Assembly: GCA_944325815.1 (NCBI GenBank)
Contig: CALVBV010000014.1
Coordinates: forward strand, 1-32,073
DNA from: Candidatus Gastranaerophilales bacterium
Lineage (GTDB): Bacteria > Cyanobacteriota > Vampirovibrionia > Gastranaerophilales > Gastranaerophilaceae
DNA length: 32,073 bases
Reading direction: 5' to 3'
Shown piece by piece: positions 2,005 to 32,073 of this stretch (position 1 is the stretch's first letter; every line of letters begins with the position of its first letter). The position numbers and the translations under genes were made by a program. Under the pieces are notes generated by a model that saw only the letters and a program-made list of their open reading frames with translations, searched no databases and was not told the DNA's origin.

Positions 2005-2026
2005 TGTAAAAAATAAGGAGAGAGTA

Positions 2027-2308
2027 ATGTCAGACGAAAAAGTCGTTAAACTTGGCGCACGAGGTAAAAAGAAAAAAGATAATGAACAGCCGGTTCACCA
2101 TTTCCGCCACGAGGGCATTCAAGAACCTGTTTACTGCAGTTTCTGCGGGAGACCTAATACAGAAGTAATAAAAATGGTTAAAGGGCCGGGGGTTAACATT
2201 TGTTCAGAGTGTACTATGATTGCAGTGCAGTATTTGATACTTAATGACAGGATGCTTTCTGCCGAAGCTCAGCACATTCTTGATGCGTTCTGGGGAAAAG
2301 CAAGATAG
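2027..2308 (+). CDS. Stand-alone ClpX-type C4 zinc-finger protein
   Basis: A 93-aa protein with a Lys/Arg-rich N-terminus and one ClpX-type zinc-binding domain: CSFC at 37-40 and CSEC at 59-62, separated by a segment resembling the [14 protein letters not shown] stretch of the ClpX in this window. It lacks any AAA+ module. In ClpX this domain dimerises and docks substrates and adaptors, so a free copy could be an adaptor, competitor or DNA/RNA-binding protein; that is inference. The ATG at 2027 is preferred over the in-frame codon at 1964 because it has AGGAGAG at 2017-2023 and an upstream promoter. It is followed closely by the unknown gene at 2316. Confidence 0.8.
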   Translation: MSDEKVVKLGARGKKKKDNEQPVHHFRHEGIQEPVYCSFCGRPNTEVIKMVKGPGVNICSECTMIAVQYLILNDRMLSAEAQHILDAFWGKAR

Positions 2309-2315
2309 GATATTT

Positions 2316-3911
2316 ATGAATAAAATTCAAATAAAAGCGGAAATTCTGGCAACACTAACGGCGCTGATGAGTTCAACTCAGCCAAACGCCTCTTTGCTGA
2401 CTGATTTAAAACTGATAGAGGATAAGAAGACAGTTCTTGAGGTTCTGATAAAAGAGCTGGTTAATGCCCCGGAACAAAAAGCGCTTCTTATTTGCTGGCT
2501 TCTGACAGAACTTATTGATAAAGATGTTTTGAACGACGAGCTCTGGAATGTGATTAAGGCGCCTGAGTACAGTGATCATGTTAAAATGATTGCTTTTAAT
2601 ATGCTCAAGGATTTGGGAAATAAAATAGACTACGACGTTATAAGCGGATATTTTGAACAGTTTAATGAACTTATTAATAAAGAAACAAAAGAACTTTTGG
2701 AAACCGCTATAATGAATCCGGAAGCTCAAATTGATTTTATGGATTTTTTAAGCGCCATAAATGACAATGATAAAATAATTTTAATAAAATCTCTGGAAGA
2801 AGATTATGCAAACGACGCGCTTGCTAATATTCTTATACCGGTATTTTTATATTATATGGGAACCGATGTCGGAAACACAGCTTTAGAAATAATCGGACGT
2901 TCAAAGTCGCAGCTTGCTTATCATGCGATAGAAAATGCAATGAAATTCGCACCGGAAGATATACAAGGAAGGCTTAACAAGGCTCTTTCGGAATTAAAAA
3001 TGTCCGGTATCAGGGTTGATAACACCGAGGAGTTTTATAAAATTATTCTGAAAGAATCAAAACCTTATAAAATCTATGTTTCTTTCCCTGATGGGCACGG
3101 CAATATGGCAATAATATTTTCACGTGTCAGGGCAAATCGCTCTCTTCAGTTTTTGGCCGTTGTTGTTAACCCAAGATATGGTATTTTAGATGCGTTCGGG
3201 TTTAATTCCATGACAGAGCAGGATTTTTATAAAATTGTAGATAAGTTTTATAACTATCAGGAAAAATATGAAATTAACGCAGGAATTGCAAAATATCTGC
3301 TTGTGCAGGCAGAAGAAAATTCGCATCTCAACGGAGAACCTATTCCGTATGAGTATATATGCTGGCAGAGTATTCTGCTTGATGTTGTTCCTGAAAAGCC
3401 TGCTATTTATTTAGAAAAAAGAGAATTAAATCAAAAAGATATTGATAAATTGTGTCTGAATGATTATGTTCAAAATTGGTTTTTTGATGAAATTACTTGT
3501 CCGGAATTTAAGGTTTTTATTGATAAATTGTCTAAAGAGTTTAAAGATAATAATTTCAATGTGGATTTGGATAAATTTGTTGCGGATAATTATGATTCAA
3601 TATATACAGCCAAGGAACTTGCGTATAAACTTATAACTTTTAATATAGCAGCGTATTTGAGAATGCTAAAAGGCGATACCGAATTGGCGGAAGTTCTTTA
3701 TTCTCTAGGCTCAAATTATTCGTTTTTGTCAAATATTATACGAAAAAGTATTTATGAATATTATATCGGCAAGCGCTATTTAGTTAAAAATCAGCGTAAA
3801 ACTTCCAATATATTTGAAAAGAAAATGTTCCCAAAATCAGATGATTTTGAGCTGCTGCAATTGGATATGATAATCTCCAGTATAGAAGCAAGGTGGGTCG
3901 ATAATGGATAA
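2316..3911 (+). CDS. Uncharacterised 531-aa protein upstream of ruvX
   Basis: I do not recognise this family. The N-terminal ~230 residues look like alpha-helical solenoid (HEAT-like): short helices with recurring Leu/Ile/Ala, such as the stretch around IEDKKTVLEVLIKELVN. The middle has a more beta-rich segment (SFPDGHGNMAII onward), and the C-terminal third is Lys/Asp/Tyr-rich and helical. No signal peptide, membrane span or catalytic motif is apparent. The ATG at 2316 is 7 bp after the zinc-finger stop, with a weak ATAGGA before it. An in-frame codon at 2244 lies inside the previous gene and is less likely. The 3' end overlaps ruvX by 8 bp, so it is almost certainly cotranscribed with it. 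Confidence 0.75.
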   Translation: MNKIQIKAEILATLTALMSSTQPNASLLTDLKLIEDKKTVLEVLIKELVNAPEQKALLICWLLTELIDKDVLNDELWNVIKAPEYSDHVKMIAFNMLKDLGNKIDYDVISGYFEQFNELINKETKELLETAIMNPEAQIDFMDFLSAINDNDKIILIKSLEEDYANDALANILIPVFLYYMGTDVGNTALEIIGRSKSQLAYHAIENAMKFAPEDIQGRLNKALSELKMSGIRVDNTEEFYKIILKESKPYKIYVSFPDGHGNMAIIFSRVRANRSLQFLAVVVNPRYGILDAFGFNSMTEQDFYKIVDKFYNYQEKYEINAGIAKYLLVQAEENSHLNGEPIPYEYICWQSILLDVVPEKPAIYLEKRELNQKDIDKLCLNDYVQNWFFDEITCPEFKVFIDKLSKEFKDNNFNVDLDKFVADNYDSIYTAKELAYKLITFNIAAYLRMLKGDTELAEVLYSLGSNYSFLSNIIRKSIYEYYIGKRYLVKNQRKTSNIFEKKMFPKSDDFELLQLDMIISSIEARWVDNG

Positions 3912-4302
3912 AGTGATGGCACTGGATGTCGGTACAAAAAGAATCGGCGTAGCATTGAGTGATTATTTGAAAGTTATTGCAATTCCTCATTCCTGCCTGA
4001 TGCGTCATCCTGAGAACGAAGCATTAGCAGAGATTGTTAAAATAGCGGCAGAAAACCGGGTTGAAAAAATTGTTGTCGGTGTTCCTGTGAATATGGACGG
4101 TTCAATCGGCGGGCAGGCAAAAGATTGTATAGATTTTTCACAAAAAATTACTGGTTTTGATATAATATTAGAAGATGAAAGATTAACTTCCGAAGAAGCA
4201 GAAGAAAGGCTTCGGGAAAGAAAGATTGATTTTCGTAAAAATAAAGGGCTTGTCGATATGGAAAGCGCGTGTATAATATTAGAACAGTATTTAGGGAAAT
4301 GA
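3904..4302 (+). CDS. ruvX: RuvX/YqgF Holliday-junction resolvase-like nuclease
   Basis: 132 aa, normal length for YqgF/RuvX. The RNase H-like fold is shown by the N-terminal ALDVGTKRIGVALSD with its first catalytic Asp, the VVGVPVNMDGSIG strand-loop, EDERLTSEEAEERL, and the C-terminal DMESACIILEQYL. Family members process Holliday junctions or 5' ends of pre-16S rRNA. AAGGTGG at 3890-3896 supports ATG 3904, which overlaps the end of the preceding gene by 8 bp. Adjacency to a DUF1292 gene is the arrangement known from Firmicutes (yrrK-yrzB). Confidence 0.93.
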   Translation: MDKVMALDVGTKRIGVALSDYLKVIAIPHSCLMRHPENEALAEIVKIAAENRVEKIVVGVPVNMDGSIGGQAKDCIDFSQKITGFDIILEDERLTSEEAEERLRERKIDFRKNKGLVDMESACIILEQYLGK

Positions 4303-4304
4303 TT

Positions 4305-4577
4305 ATGAGTGAAGAAGAACAAAATTATGTAGAAATTTATGACGAAGACGGGCAGATAACAAAGTGCGAAATTTATGATGTAATAGACTTTGAAGAAAAA
4401 ACTTATGCACTTTTGCTTCCATTGGGTGAAAGTGAAGATGATGAAGATGCCGAAGTCATTGTTATGGAATATGTAGAAGAAGGCGATGACGGGTATTTCA
4501 AGAATATTGAAGATGACGCAGAGTTTAACCGTGTATGTCAATATATTGAGACTTTAGACGAAGAAGATGAGGAATAA
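4305..4577 (+). CDS. DUF1292 (YrzB-like) acidic protein
   Basis: A 90-aa, very acidic protein of the DUF1292 family, function unknown. The typical core is visible: YDEDGQITKCEIYDVIDFEEKTYAL and then a segment with IVMEYVEEGDDGYF. ATG 4305 has GGGA at 4294-4297 at a usable distance. ATG 4299, which overlaps the ruvX stop as ATGA, is the alternative and would add two residues. It lies between ruvX and the Clp_N-repeat gene in the same transcript. Confidence 0.88.
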   Translation: MSEEEQNYVEIYDEDGQITKCEIYDVIDFEEKTYALLLPLGESEDDEDAEVIVMEYVEEGDDGYFKNIEDDAEFNRVCQYIETLDEEDEE

Positions 4578-4582
4578 TAGTT

Positions 4583-5920
4583 TTGTTTGAGCGTTTTACG
4601 GAAAGAGCTGTCAATGTAGTAAGTGAGTCGCAAAAACTGGCTCAAGAAATGTCTTGTTTAGAAGTTCTGCCGGAACATCTTCTGCTTGCGCTTGTAAAAG
4701 AGGCTAAAGGCGTGTCTTTAAAACTGTTTAGAATGTATGGCGTTACAGAAGAGTTGGTCCGTGAAAAGATTGAAGCTTGTGTAAGTAAATCAAATAAAGT
4801 ATCCGCAAATATTCCTTTCAGCCGTGAAGTTAAAGATATTTTAAAACATACGTTGGATTTAGCCGGCAAATCCGGCAATACCAATATTCTCTTTGAACAT
4901 CTTTTCTTATCTGTTATAACGGATAAAAATCCCAACATTCAGGAGATTCTAAAAAGCTGTAATTTTGATATATATAATTCAAAGGACATTTTAACAAAAC
5001 TTGTACAGAGGAAAATTAAGCGTCTTGAACATCCGGAAGCTGAGGATGACGAGGATAAAAACAATAGTTTTGAATCTGTATATGAAGGCGAAGCTTTGAA
5101 AGATGTTTTGGAAAGCGCTGTTTCCAAACTCTCTGCAGCCGGTTATGAAATCTTAGGCACAGAGCAGATAATGGCTTCTATACTTGAGTTTTCTGATAAA
5201 GAGCTGGTTAAGACCATTAATAAATACGGACTTAATGCGGAAATTTTTGAGCAAAAGCTTAAAGAACAACAGTCGCGTCAATCAGAATATGAAGGAAAAA
5301 GAATAATTTTTACGCCGAATGCGTTCTTGATGATGAACTCAGCTTTCCAAGCCGCAAAAGAGCTTGGCTCTTCCGTGATTACACCAGAGCATATTGTTTT
5401 AAGTATTCTGAAAACGAAAAAAGGCTTGGCTTATGATATTATCAAGTCTCTTGGGATAAACAGCGATGAATTATCAACAGAAATTTTAAAACCAATAGAA
5501 AAACAAATGCCCGAAACCTTGACTATAATGAAGCTTGCAAAAGAAGAGGCAAGAAGAATCGGAAGAAACGTCGTCGGTACGGAAATGTTTCTGCTTGGAA
5601 TTATTGCAGAAGGAACAAGCGTTGCGTTTGAGGTTTTGAATGATTTGGAAATAACCATGAAAGATGCAAGACTTGTTGTGGAAAATCTTGTCGGATACGG
5701 TAATGAGTATTTTGATAAGGAAATAACATTTACGCGCCGAGCCAAAAGAGTGCTGGAAAAAGCCTGGGTTTCGGCTAAAAAATCCAACAAACAGAAAATT
5801 GAGGCAGTTGATTTACTCCTTGCTATCCTGGATGAACCTGAGTCGCTCGCGATGAAAGCGCTGAATCAGCTTGGAGTTGATGCTGTTGAAATTAAACATG
5901 GTATTCAAGGTATTAAATAG
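4583..5920 (+). CDS. Triple Clp_N-domain protein lacking AAA+ ATPase
   Basis: 445 aa made of six Clp_N half-repeats of about 65-75 residues, equivalent to three full ClpA/ClpC N-domains, at roughly 1-70, 75-145, 165-230, 240-305, 308-375 and 380-445. Hallmarks are FERFTERAVNVVSESQKLA, LPEHLLLAL, ITPEHIVLSIL, VVGTEMFLLGII and KIEAVDLLLAIL. No Walker A or B motif and no D1/D2 ATPase module is present. In ClpC/ClpA this domain binds adaptors and substrates, so this protein may be an adaptor scaffold or regulator of a Clp machine (inference). Translation starts at TTG 4583, 9 nt after GAGGA (4569-4573). Its TAG stop overlaps the GTG of tilS by one base. Confidence 0.85.
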   Translation: MFERFTERAVNVVSESQKLAQEMSCLEVLPEHLLLALVKEAKGVSLKLFRMYGVTEELVREKIEACVSKSNKVSANIPFSREVKDILKHTLDLAGKSGNTNILFEHLFLSVITDKNPNIQEILKSCNFDIYNSKDILTKLVQRKIKRLEHPEAEDDEDKNNSFESVYEGEALKDVLESAVSKLSAAGYEILGTEQIMASILEFSDKELVKTINKYGLNAEIFEQKLKEQQSRQSEYEGKRIIFTPNAFLMMNSAFQAAKELGSSVITPEHIVLSILKTKKGLAYDIIKSLGINSDELSTEILKPIEKQMPETLTIMKLAKEEARRIGRNVVGTEMFLLGIIAEGTSVAFEVLNDLEITMKDARLVVENLVGYGNEYFDKEITFTRRAKRVLEKAWVSAKKSNKQKIEAVDLLLAILDEPESLAMKALNQLGVDAVEIKHGIQGIK

Positions 5921-7260
5921 TGATTAATCGTGTAATAGATTTTTTGAGGAAATACGAACTGCAGGATAAAACAATTATTGTAGGGTTTTCCGGCGGTTAT
6001 GATTCCATGTGTCTTCTGGATATCTTATCTAAGATTAAAACCCTGCCTGAATTTGCAGAGATGACAATAATATCAGCCCATTTTAACCACAATTGGCGCG
6101 GTGAAGAATCTTTAAAAGAACAGGAAGTCTGCAGGATTTTTTCCAGTGCAAAAGGCGTGGAATTTTATACTAAAGATGCCCCGAAAGGATTAAAAAAGAC
6201 CGAAAACGATGCCAGAATTGCAAGGTATGAGTTTTTTGAAGAAGCTTATGAAGAGTATGATGCAGATGCTGTTTTTACTGCACATAACAAAGATGATAAT
6301 GCGGAAACAGTTTTATACAGGATTATAAAAGGAACGGGAATCGTCGGATTAAAGGGAATTTCCGAAAAAAGACTGTATTTTTATCGTCCGCTTTTGACAA
6401 CAAGACGTTCGGAGATTGTTGATTATTGTAACGAAAATAATCTTGCGCCTAATAACGATTCTTCAAATTCTAATATTGCGTACAAAAGGAATTATTTGCG
6501 GCTCAATGTAATCCCTGCGCTTGAAAAAATTAATGAGAATGTAAAAGATGCTCTTAATACGCTTTCTGCGGTTGCGACAAGCGAAAATGAGATTATTGAA
6601 GAATACTTAAAAACAATAAGACCTAATGTTTTTAAGGGTGATCGTATAATTTCTTCTGAGTATAAAAAACTTTCTAAGCCTGTTAAATTACGGCTTCTGC
6701 ATGAATATATCCAACAGCTTGATTTGGATTACGACTTCAAGAAAATTTCTGAAATATATGAATTTATAGAAAGTAATATTAATCAGAGAAACGGAAGTAC
6801 AATGTCTCTTGCCTCCGCCAAATGGCTTTACGCTGATGAAAAGTTTGTGGAGAAAATACCCCGCAGTAATGCAGAAGAAAAAGAGGTCATAGAAGTTTTG
6901 ATTCCATCTGAGGGCGAGTATGTTGTCGGCAATAAAAAATTTTTATTAAGACGGCATAATGAAAAAGACCTGTTTGTATTTCCGGAAGCAACTGCGAACT
7001 TTGCCTATGCAGATTTTTCAAACATTCAGTTTCCATTGACATTGAGAACACGTAAAGACGGAGATATTATTACACCTTTTGGGATGAAAGGTACAATGAA
7101 GCTTAAAAAATATTTAAACTCTAAAGGTGTTCCGCGTCATAATCGGGATAAGATGCTGCTTTTATGCAAGGATAACGAAGTTCTCTGGGTCTTAGGCGCT
7201 GGAATCAGCGACAAAATCGGAGTAAAAGGGATTCCAACGCATGTTATAGAATTTATCTGA
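5920..7260 (+). CDS. tilS: tRNA(Ile)-lysidine synthase TilS
   Basis: 446 aa. It modifies the wobble C34 of tRNA-Ile(CAU) to lysidine with ATP and lysine, which is required to read AUA. The N-terminal PP-loop ATPase motif SGGYDS is at residues 24-29, followed by SAHFNHNWRGEES and ending with FTAHNKDDNAETVLYR. The C-terminal TilS domain (about 365-440) contains RTRKDGDIITPFGMKGTMKL. GTG start, overlapping the previous TAG (TAGTG) with AAGGT upstream. The downstream hpt is the classic tilS-hpt neighbour of Firmicutes and related groups. Confidence 0.95.
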   Translation: MINRVIDFLRKYELQDKTIIVGFSGGYDSMCLLDILSKIKTLPEFAEMTIISAHFNHNWRGEESLKEQEVCRIFSSAKGVEFYTKDAPKGLKKTENDARIARYEFFEEAYEEYDADAVFTAHNKDDNAETVLYRIIKGTGIVGLKGISEKRLYFYRPLLTTRRSEIVDYCNENNLAPNNDSSNSNIAYKRNYLRLNVIPALEKINENVKDALNTLSAVATSENEIIEEYLKTIRPNVFKGDRIISSEYKKLSKPVKLRLLHEYIQQLDLDYDFKKISEIYEFIESNINQRNGSTMSLASAKWLYADEKFVEKIPRSNAEEKEVIEVLIPSEGEYVVGNKKFLLRRHNEKDLFVFPEATANFAYADFSNIQFPLTLRTRKDGDIITPFGMKGTMKLKKYLNSKGVPRHNRDKMLLLCKDNEVLWVLGAGISDKIGVKGIPTHVIEFI

Positions 7261-11281: not shown

Positions 11282-11316
11282 GATATTGTCATTTGATTAA
11301 AGAAAGGAAAATAAGA

Positions 11317-11901
11317 ATGAGTTTTGTACCTGTAGTAATAGAACAATCAAGCAGAGGGGAACGTTCTTTTGATATCTTCTCAAGATTGTTGAGAGAGAGA
11401 ATAATCTTTTTGGGAACCCCGGTTGACGATATGGTTGCAAATTTAATAGTTGCGCAATTATTGCTGCTGGATAGTGAAAATCCGGAAAAAGATATTATGC
11501 TGTATATCAACTCTCCGGGCGGAAGTGTAACTGCAGGTTTAGCAATATATGATACAATGCAGCACATAAGAGCAGATGTATGTACAATCTGCTTAGGTCA
11601 AGCTGCTTCAATGGGTGCCTTTCTTCTTTGCTCAGGTGCTAAAGGCAAGAGAATGGCTCTTCCTCATTCAAGAGTTCTTATCCACCAGCCTTTAGGCGGT
11701 GCGCAGGGTCAGGCTACCGATATTGAAATTCAGGCACAAGAAATCTTGAGAATCAAGAAAACCCTGAACGAAATTATGGCTGCAAATACAGGCCAGTCAA
11801 TTAAGAAAATTGAAAAGGATACTGATCGTGACTATATCATGACACCTCAAGAAGCTCTTGAATACGGTATGATTGATAAAGTCATTACCAAAGAGGGGTA
11901 G
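11317..11901 (+). CDS. clpP: ATP-dependent Clp protease proteolytic subunit ClpP
   Basis: 194 aa. Serine protease that forms the tetradecameric chamber working with ClpX (next gene). The catalytic triad is visible as Ser98 (GQAASMGAF), His123 ([10 protein letters not shown]) and Asp172 ([11 protein letters not shown]), equal to the E. coli mature positions plus one. [17 protein letters not shown] is the oxyanion/handle region. ATG 11317 is chosen over the upstream in-frame TTG at 11293 because AAAGGA (11303-11308) is 8 nt before it. Confidence 0.97.
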
Positions 11902-11974: not shown

Positions 11975-13306
11975 ATGGCATCACAAGACAGGCTAAAATG
12001 TTCATTTTGCGGAAAAACGCAGGATCAGGTAAAAAAATTAATTGCAGGACCTGATGTATTCATTTGTGATGAATGCGTTGAGCTTTGTAATGAAATATTA
12101 GACGAAGAGTTTTTTGAAGCCAAAGAAAAAACGAGCGGAAAACAGGATTCCAAATCTTCCGATATGGAAGATAAACCTATTCCAAAACCACATGAAATCA
12201 AAGCGTACCTGGATCAACATATAGTCGGTCAGGATGATGCCAAAAAAGTTCTTTCTGTAGCGGTTTATAATCACTACAAACGTTTGAAACATAACCAGAA
12301 AGAGGATACAAACGGAGTTGAAATCCAAAAATCCAATATTCTTCTTGTAGGACCTACCGGAAGCGGCAAGACACTGCTTGCTCAGACATTGGCTAAAATG
12401 CTTGATGTTCCGTTTGCTGTAGCTGATGCTACAACCCTTACTGAGGCCGGTTATGTCGGGGATGATGTAGAAAATATTCTTCTCCGTCTTTATCAGAATG
12501 CTGATTATGATGCTAAAAAAGCAGAAAAAGGTATTATCTATATTGACGAAATCGATAAAATCGCCAGAAAATCCGAAAATACCTCAATAACAAGAGATGT
12601 GTCCGGTGAAGGGGTTCAACAGGCATTATTGAAGCTTATTGAAGGCACAATATCAAATGTACCTCCACAGGGCGGAAGAAAACACCCTCAGCAGGAAATG
12701 ATTCAGATTGATACAAGCAATATTCTGTTTATTGTAGGCGGTGCGTTCGTTGATTTGGATAAGATTATTGAACACAGAGTAAAAGACGGTTCTTCGATTG
12801 GTTTCGGAAAATCTGCACCGACTCAGGCAGAAAAAGAACAGGCAGCAGCAAGACTTCTTAAGAAGCTGCAGCCGGAGGATTTGCTTAAATTTGGTTTAAT
12901 ACCAGAATTTATCGGCAGAATTCCTGTTTATGCAGTACTTGATGCTCTTGATGAAGATACTTTGAAGATGATTCTTACAGAGCCAAAGAATGCTATAATT
13001 AAGCAGTATCAATGTCTGCTAGCAATGGACGGTGTAGAATTAGAGTTTGAACCTGATGCAATTGATTTAATAGCTAAAAAGGCTATAAAACGTAAAACCG
13101 GAGCCAGAGCATTACGTTCCATTGTAGAAGAATTAATGCTTGATGTAATGTATGATATTCCGACAAAACATGATATCAACAAGTTTGTTGTTACAAAGGA
13201 TATGGTAGAAAAGCAGGATGAGATAGATAATCGTGCTGAATTAATCCATTTGCCTCACAATAAACCTGCAGATATTTCAGAAAAAACAAGAGCGGAAATT
13301 GCATAA
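11975..13306 (+). CDS. clpX: ATP-dependent Clp protease ATP-binding subunit ClpX
   Basis: 443 aa, full length. The N-terminal C4 zinc domain has C9, C12, C31 and C34. The AAA+ domain shows Walker A GPTGSGKT, the GYVGDDVE pore loop, Walker [15 protein letters not shown], the [19 protein letters not shown] region with sensor 1, and GFGKS near the ClpP-binding IGF-loop region (SSIGFGKS), then sensor 2 GARALRSI. It unfolds tagged substrates and feeds them to ClpP. AGGAG (11964-11968) fixes ATG 11975. Only 2 bp separate its stop from that of the convergent gene on the minus strand. Confidence 0.97.
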
Positions 13307-30219: not shown

Positions 30220-32073
30220 ATGAAAGGATATCAAAACAGAAAGAGCTTAAACACTTGCTGTGAGCAGATTTTGGCCGCCGAACCCTTAGGGGGGGGGGGT
30301 AAAACACACTCCGGTAAAGGGTTTTAGCCCTCTGGGGAAATTATCCGCTGTTTTGTGTTTATCCTTGATGGCGCTTCCTGCCGCAGCCGGCGAGAGCCCG
30401 ACACTTGATGAGCTGCACAATAACGGCGTAATCAACCCGTCAACAATGGAACAGGATGACGAGGGAAACCCGATAGAGGGAACGGGCGAAGTTTATCCGG
30501 AATCCGCTTATACACTGACTCGCGTAGACGAGGCCGGGGTAAATACTATAACCAAGTATGAATACAATGAAGAAACCCAAAAGTTTGAGCCTGTGTATTA
30601 TGAGCTCACCCTGAAGCAGACTGAATACGGCGAGGGCGCTAACAGCAAGTATTTTGAGTGGGGCGAAAATTCAGACGGCAATTATGAGTTTAAAGAAGTT
30701 GCAGCGCCAACCGAAGGCAAAACAACAATTACAGCCTATTATGACACGAATCATGACAGAATAGATACAGACCAGCAGGGGCAGAATGTAGTAGGAGATT
30801 TTGTTGGAAACTATGTAAGTAATTCCGGTTATGCCAGGGGCGGCGCGATTGATAATGATGGCACAATTGGCGATATCACGGGTGATTTTATCGGCAACTA
30901 CGCACAGAGTGAGTCCGTTTATGTCTCTGGCGGTGCGATTTATAATTATGACACAATCAGCAATATCACAGGTGACTTTATCGGCAACTATGCACAGAGT
31001 GATTCCAATTCTGCCCGTGGCGGTGCGATTTATAATTATGATGGTACAATCGGCAACATCACGGGTGACTTTATAGGAAATTATGTACAGAGTGATTCCG
31101 GTTATGCCGAAGGCGGTGCGATTTATAATGAATATAGTTTTATTGGCAACATCACGGGTGACTTTATCGGCAACTACGCCAAGAGCGATTCCGATGATGC
31201 CAAATACGGCGCGATTTGTAATGATTACATAATCGGCAATATAACTGGCGACTTTATCGGCAACTATGCACAGAGTAATTCCGGTTATGCCCATTGCGGT
31301 GCAATTTATAATAATGGAAGAATCGGTGATATCACGGGCGATTTTATTAGTAACTACGCACAAAGTGATTCTGGTTCTGCCTCTGGCGGCGCGATTTATA
31401 ATTACTCTGAAATCGGTGATATCACGGGCGACTTTATTGGTAACTATGCGCAAGGTGGGTCTCATTCTGTCCATGGTGGCGCGATTTATAATGATGGTAT
31501 ATTCAGCAATATCACGGGCGACTTTATTGGTAACTATGCGCAAGGTGGGTCTGATTCTGCCTATGGTGGCGCGATTTATAATGAAGATACAATCGGCGAT
31601 ATCTCCGGTAGTTTCATAGGTAATTATGCGCAAGGTGGGTCTGGTTTTGCGCAAGGCGGCGCGATTTATAATGAAGATACAATCGGCGATATCTCCGGTA
31701 GTTTCATAGGTAATTATGCAGAGACTTCTTCTAGTTCAGAGCTTGCCATTGGCGGCGCAGTGTATACAGAGTATGATATGACCTTTTTAGCCAATAATAA
31801 GACAATTGAGTTTACCGGCAACTATACAAAAGATTCCAGAGGCGCGATCCCAAACGCAATCTGGGTTGATACTAGTTATTCTCCGCCTAGCATTATTACT
31901 CTCAAAGCCCAGAATAACGGCAATATTGTCTTCAACGACCAGATAGATGGGGGCAAAGTAAGAGGAACAACTATCGACCGCACAAAACAGTATAAACTCT
32001 CCCTCACAGGCGACAAAACCGGCAATATTTATTTCAATAACGACATAATAAACGCGGATATCACGCTGGATGA
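30220..32073 (+). CDS. Phase-variable Pmp-like repeat adhesin (frame broken at G11; 3' end outside window)
   Basis: ATG 30220, with GAGG at 30207-30210, reads 35 codons through the G11 tract and stops at 30325-30327. One base out of frame, an open frame continues from before 30296 to the window end without a stop. It encodes a signal peptide (GKLSAVLCLSLMALPAAA, ending near 30388), about 130 residues of unique sequence and then eleven ~30-residue repeats with consensus ITGDFIGNYAQSDSG..GGAIYN. The paired GGAI and FxxN motifs are those of chlamydial polymorphic membrane proteins, which form beta-helical autotransporter passengers. With G10 or G13 the start and signal peptide would be fused. 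An autotransporter barrel, if present, lies beyond the window. Codon use (GGC, GCG, ATC) is more GC-rich than in neighbouring genes. Confidence 0.8.
30289..30299 (+). repeat. Poly-G tract (G11) inside the adhesin N-terminus
   Basis: Eleven consecutive G at codons 24-27 of the frame opened at 30220, followed by TAAAAC. The downstream coding frame is displaced by one base, so the cloned or assembled length is OFF. Loss of one G, or gain of two, restores a continuous frame of the form PLGGGVKHTPVKGFSPLGK ahead of the signal peptide. Confidence 0.85.
30788..31776 (+). repeat. Eleven tandem ~90-bp Pmp-like repeats
   Basis: Units are 29-31 codons with GDFIGNYA and GGAIYN as anchors. Neighbouring units 8 to 10 are nearly identical: 62 nt at 31568-31629 recur exactly at 31658-31719, and 44 nt at 31419-31462 recur at 31511-minus-2 (31509) to 31552, both at a 90-bp offset. 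This points to recent duplication. The long minus-strand frame here is a by-product of the repeat. Confidence 0.85.

Follow-up and report, generated by a model that had tools for sequence, protein, structure and literature searches.

The question raised by this locus is what a protein built from Clp_N domains, and bearing no ATPase of its own, might do in a cell that also possesses a separate ClpC. The gene lies within a window (the whole stretch of DNA analysed, 32,073 nt from a Candidatus Gastranaerophilales bacterium), and its parts and neighbours are collected in Table 1. The original prediction of three Clp_N domains without an ATPase is borne out by the open reading frame, Pfam, an AF2 model and structural matches. 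The Pfam match to Clp_N has an E-value of 2.2e-46 and a score of 156.2 bits (PF02861 cut-off of 20.7) across five significant stretches, with this being the sole family above cut-off and no AAA+ or other ATPase domain detected by Pfam. No NCBIfam model reaches its cut-off for the array, and PADLOC returned nothing for it. The AF2 model, built on 41 orthologs (mean pLDDT of 85.4, pTM of 0.62), displays 24 main helices, which form six four-helix groups, as well as a short linker helix at residues 164–167, and it supports the weaker half-repeats. Apart from a linker of ~20 residues, six half-repeats make up the protein, as proposed. Comparison of the model with the PDB using Foldseek and VIA-align returns ClpC N-domains as the best matches, with D3 aligning to a ClpC N-domain structure at a Z-score of 22.8 and an rmsd of 1.4 over 137 residues. 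Structural matches to D1 include the N-domains of Hsp104, ClpB and ClpC2, whilst ClpT structures are also found amongst matches to the array. The overall fold, from both the model and the PDB matches, is that of paired four-helix repeats, as in the Clp_N family.

Table 1. Coordinates of the triple Clp_N array, its parts and associated genes within the window
Feature	Position	Strand	Remarks
Lone ClpX-type C4 zinc finger	2018-2308	+	96 aa, without ATPase; Pfam E = 5e-13
DUF1292 gene	4302..4577	+	Directly upstream of array; listed ORF starts at 4269
Triple Clp_N array gene	4583..5920	+	Whole gene with its stop codon; begins with TTG and encodes 445 aa
D1, two Clp_N half-repeats, aa 1-143	4583..5011	+	AF2 model and ortholog alignment
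D1-D2 linker, aa 144-164	5012..5074	+	Variable, mostly low model confidence
His-Pro-Glu, aa 150-152, inside linker	5030..5038	+	Invariant in 41/41 aligned orthologs
D2, two half-repeats, aa 165-300	5075..5482	+	Most divergent from ClpC, 22% identity
D3, two half-repeats, aa 301-445	5483..5917	+	Most ClpC-like and most conserved
tilS	5920..7260	+	Directly downstream of array; such a neighbour in window's family only
ClpP	11293-11901		
ClpX	11975-13306		

The amino terminus of the array (MFERFTER) is ClpC-like and begins at the TTG. This codon starts 86 of the 107 distinct array orthologs, and 14 of the 17 outside the window's family, whereas in each of the nine genomes read ClpC has an ATG start. 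A weak start codon, conserved in this manner, could limit levels of the array protein.

When the architecture was sought in relatives, full-length orthologs were found order-wide by protein search, in 53 of 56 Candidatus Gastranaerophilales genomes. In a second, phylum-wide draw, the array is present in every genome of the window's family (65/65), whilst for the 81 other genomes the top match covers only part of the protein and has the strength that ClpC gives; a further family within the class has free Clp_N arrays of its own. The array was not found in the assemblies of three genomes of the order (G039, G046 and G052). For G039, the genes that flank the array in its sister genome, G044, were not found either, so an assembly gap may account for its absence there. 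All that was recovered of these flanks in G039 is a dispersed repeat of ~150 bases, which in G044 is located immediately upstream of the array (L133:4752-4930) and has >20 matches in G039; this element folds better than its shuffled counterparts (z of -2.9) and has no Rfam match. Where estimable, dN/dS values between the window and close relatives are 0.07–0.12 for D1 (five comparisons), 0.02–0.03 for D2 (two comparisons) and 0.01–0.02 for D3 (three comparisons), with dS saturated in the remainder. All three domains are under purifying selection, and D3 is the most constrained. As nearly all tested relatives keep the array, it is a genuine component of their protein quality control, and probably a regulatory one.

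That the gene is a ClpC or ClpB stripped of its ATPase by a frameshift or an assembly error, a concern raised alongside the original prediction, is scarcely credible. Orthologs are 442–467 aa wherever read and lack the AAA+ module also, the adjoining DUF1292 and tilS genes are intact, dN/dS is low (0.01–0.12) in every domain for which an estimate was obtained, and nothing was found in favour of such a loss. A broken or split ClpC is ruled out in addition by genes elsewhere in the same genome: the proposed check for a separate clpC located an 827-aa frame (contig C19), and likewise an 873-aa frame for ClpB (contig C81), and the portions read of each contain AAA+ sequence. The ATPase-free form is the native state of the array.

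With regard to genomic context, only five bases separate the DUF1292 stop from the TTG of the array, the stop codon of which overlaps the tilS start. Loci resembling the window share a recurring set comprising the zinc-finger gene, a 531-aa protein, ruvX, DUF1292, the array, tilS and hpt, and in 74 loci the array is flanked by DUF1292 and tilS. The 531-aa protein (2316-3911, + strand) adjoins ruvX in 74 of 80 related loci, and no family of Pfam or NCBIfam matches it above cut-off. None of these genes is found beside the array in other families of the order, where it adjoins, for example, a MurE-like ligase or a NIF3-like protein (names read by eye). The argument originally drawn from an operon with ruvX and tilS is consequently weakened, as the ruvX-DUF1292-array-tilS order was found only in the window's family, and because neighbours change outside of it, this linkage is weak evidence of function. 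Elsewhere in the window, a flagellin gene (289-1944, + strand) retains intact N- and C-terminal domains around a central insert that weakly resembles the GLUG motif, and a tandem 90-base unit (30818-31693; about 9.7 copies, 78% match) is open in frames on both strands.

The clpPX pair and the separate ClpX-type zinc finger noted near the array are present as described, and the genome holds two ClpP genes. Nevertheless, the proposed connection to ClpX is not supported: clpP occurs in 12 and clpX in nine of 80 related loci, most of which end near there, and to our knowledge ClpX has no Clp_N domain. Nor does the array display a fixed genomic link to clpC or clpP. The zinc finger is another motor-free piece of a Clp machine, found upstream of the array in 46 of the 80 loci. 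Of the established partners, ClpS was not found in the genomes of 37 relatives, nor MecA in those of 19, with positive controls detected in both searches. The suggested link to phospho-arginine likewise lacks support, there being no match to an McsB-type arginine kinase in 28 genomes, although the control was silent too and this result does not establish absence. What is supported of the original interpretation is a free, multivalent Clp_N array beside a separate ClpC, with the operon, ClpX and phospho-arginine parts left unsupported.

The three domains are far from interchangeable. Identity to the N-domain of the same genome's ClpC is about 41% for D3 and 27% for D1, with D2 lower still (Table 1), whilst mutual identity between the three is only 17–20%. 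In a domain tree, D2 and D3 each form a well-supported group on the ClpC side, whereas D1 lies on the opposite side with ClpB, its exact place left unsure by long branches. Due to this low mutual identity and these separate groupings, D1–D3 are diverged paralogs, not recent copies. The His-Pro-Glu of the linker, constant although the residues surrounding it vary, looks like a candidate short binding motif.

Functional sites described for ClpC are distributed unevenly across the array. In the ClpC N-domain, E32, E106 and T7 belong to the phospho-arginine (pArg) pockets, T7, R9 and R122 contact the M-domain, and K85 contacts AAA1 (PMC12583610), whilst F2, F80 and E89 are groove sites for cyclomarin (PMC10030653). 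D1 of the window keeps T6, K/R8, E31, F79, K84 and the second Glu (corresponding to T6, K8, E31, F80, K85 and E106 of ClpC). Amongst 24 diverse orthologs, D1 has Thr at the T7 site and Lys or Arg at the R9 site in every case, F80 in all 24, K85 in 22, and the two Glu in 22 and 23. This occurs within a domain that keeps only 15 of 88 ClpC-conserved columns overall; five of seven named, ClpC-conserved sites are retained versus 10 of 81 others (P = 0.0013; leaving out the two Glu shared with ClpB, P = 0.023), in a test that was made once the alignment had been seen. D2 is without the T/R segment and has Phe or Tyr at the K85 site, whilst D3 has lost T7 and R9 but retains K85 (22/24) and, at position 122, a basic residue (24/24). 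The groove aromatic F80 is found in 24, 20 and 17 of the 24 orthologs for D1, D2 and D3, respectively. At the F2, F80 and E89 sites, D1 has F/L/I, F and K, D2 has Y/F/L, F and N, and D3 has I, F/Y/L and E. On the opposing side, alignment of the window's ClpC demonstrates that E359 and the M-domain partners E426, E435 and F436 (sites: PMC12583610) are kept, so that, judged from these residues, a contact between D1 and the M-domain could form in trans. In the same alignment, position 356 of this ClpC is Pro and position 462 is Arg, so the dominant contact between N-domain and AAA1 described for S. aureus is not preserved as such.

A protein that is Clp_N over its whole length is thus conserved across the order, under purifying selection, beside a separate ClpC. 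The reading favoured here, with roughly even confidence, is that the array is a dedicated ATPase-free Clp_N receptor or regulator, acting in trans on the ClpC-ClpP branch. Its domains would present ClpC-N-like surfaces, namely peptide grooves and, for D1, pArg-pocket and M-domain-contact residues as well. Through these, the array may bind the M-domain of ClpC directly, or else clients or partners such as those of the ClpC N-domain, and would thereby set either the flow of clients to ClpC or the exit of ClpC from its resting state; the net outcome would be client delivery or client sequestration. A role in the ClpC branch is favoured by conservation of the array at constant length whatever its gene neighbours, by the ClpC sites kept in D1 and the M-domain partners kept in ClpC, by ClpS (0/37) and MecA (0/19) not being found in relatives, and by the precedents of ClpC2 and ClpT1. 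It is weakened by Pro 356 and Arg 462 of ClpC, by the three genomes of the order whose assemblies are without the gene, by the timing of the site test after the alignment, and by the variable genomic position relative to clpC and clpP. A bolder version, which is unlikely at present, holds that this order regulates ClpC through the array instead of through ClpS and MecA: D1, as a pseudo-N-domain, would dock in trans on the M-domain of ClpC and open the resting state, whilst D2 and D3 hold clients. If true, this would represent an adaptor class built from the N-domain of the unfoldase itself.

In a more restricted version of the ClpC-branch reading, the array is a ClpC2-like sponge or holdase that never touches ClpC itself, but competes for what the ClpC N-domain would bind, be it toxic peptides, phage proteins or unfolded clients. 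This is less probable. In its favour, ClpC2 sets a precedent as a free Clp_N protein that binds cyclomarin and protects the cell (PMC10030653), and the groove aromatic is kept in D1, D2 and mostly D3. The grooves differ, however, both from that of ClpC and from each other (K, N and E at the E89 site, and I at the F2 site of D3), which speaks against a sponge because a decoy for a single ligand would not need such divergence; it also leaves the invariant His-Pro-Glu unexplained. With three diverged grooves, a multi-specificity receptor, be it adaptor or holdase, is likelier than a simple decoy.

A partner of ClpB, or a chaperone or scaffold that acts alone and has no connection to ClpC, is quite improbable: the position of D1 near ClpB in the tree, its matches to Hsp104 and ClpB N-domains, and a best NCBIfam match to ClpB (though far below cut-off) are countered by the placement of D2 and D3 on the ClpC side, by the resemblance of D3 to ClpC, and by the long branches involved in grouping D1 with ClpB. 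The Clp_N domain of ClpC2 also binds the operator of its own gene (PMC10030653), yet a DNA-binding regulator of this kind is very hard to reconcile with an array that is acidic overall (pI of 5.6, net charge of -8; +1, -5 and 0 for D1, D2 and D3, respectively), and with neighbours that change between families, and therefore suggest no fixed operator.

Amongst the papers searched, none covers Gastranaerophilales together with ClpC, nor was anything relevant found on tandem Clp_N. Hsp100 unfoldases (ClpA/B/C) carry AAA+ after the N-domain, which the array does not; ClpC has one N-domain fused to two AAA+ modules, whereas the array has three in a row, although the fold is the same and D3 is about 41% identical. 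The adaptors MecA, MdfA, McsA/McsB and ClpS bind the ClpC N-domain with folds unrelated to it, and share with the array its proposed role of steering clients to ClpC; the array differs in being the N-domain fold itself. All ClpC adaptors characterised so far bind this N-domain (PMC12583610), and the array would show control of ClpC by a docking surface presented in trans. Within the same class, family f8 (L136-L138) also possesses ATPase-free Clp_N proteins, one of which (434 aa) has a comparable layout and starts MFERFT, but there are many variable copies per genome, of differing lengths and fusions, and their domains do not correspond one-to-one with D1–D3 in the tree. This family, the genomes of which are large, also encodes an 829-aa protein of many Clp_N-like repeats without an evident ATPase, a 254-aa Clp_N protein and a 482-aa fusion of Clp_N with a protein-kinase-like region, these domains having been assigned in part by eye.

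ClpC2 and ClpT offer the closest precedents for the probable mode of action of the array, although it belongs to neither. Mycobacterial ClpC2, like the array, is a free ClpC-N-like protein without an ATPase in a genome with a complete ClpC elsewhere; it competes for ligands of ClpC1, binds cyclomarin as tightly as ClpC1, shields the cell and has been discussed as a holdase (PMC10030653). ClpC2 has one Clp_N following a four-helix dimerisation domain, whereas the array starts directly with Clp_N and has three such domains with different grooves. Antibiotics target the ClpC N-domain, and ClpC2 demonstrates that free copies of it are able to weaken the effect of such drugs. The plastid accessory factors ClpT1 and ClpT2 are similarly ATPase-free Clp_N proteins (PMC4243950, PMC7966870), with ClpT1 binding Hsp100 partners and altering the ATPase of ClpD (PMC4243950). 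ClpT, however, has a single Clp_N, is reported as unique to algae and plants, and binds the ClpPR core, whilst the array is bacterial and has three domains. Together with ClpC2 and ClpT, the array would point to a wider group of Clp_N regulators that lack a motor.
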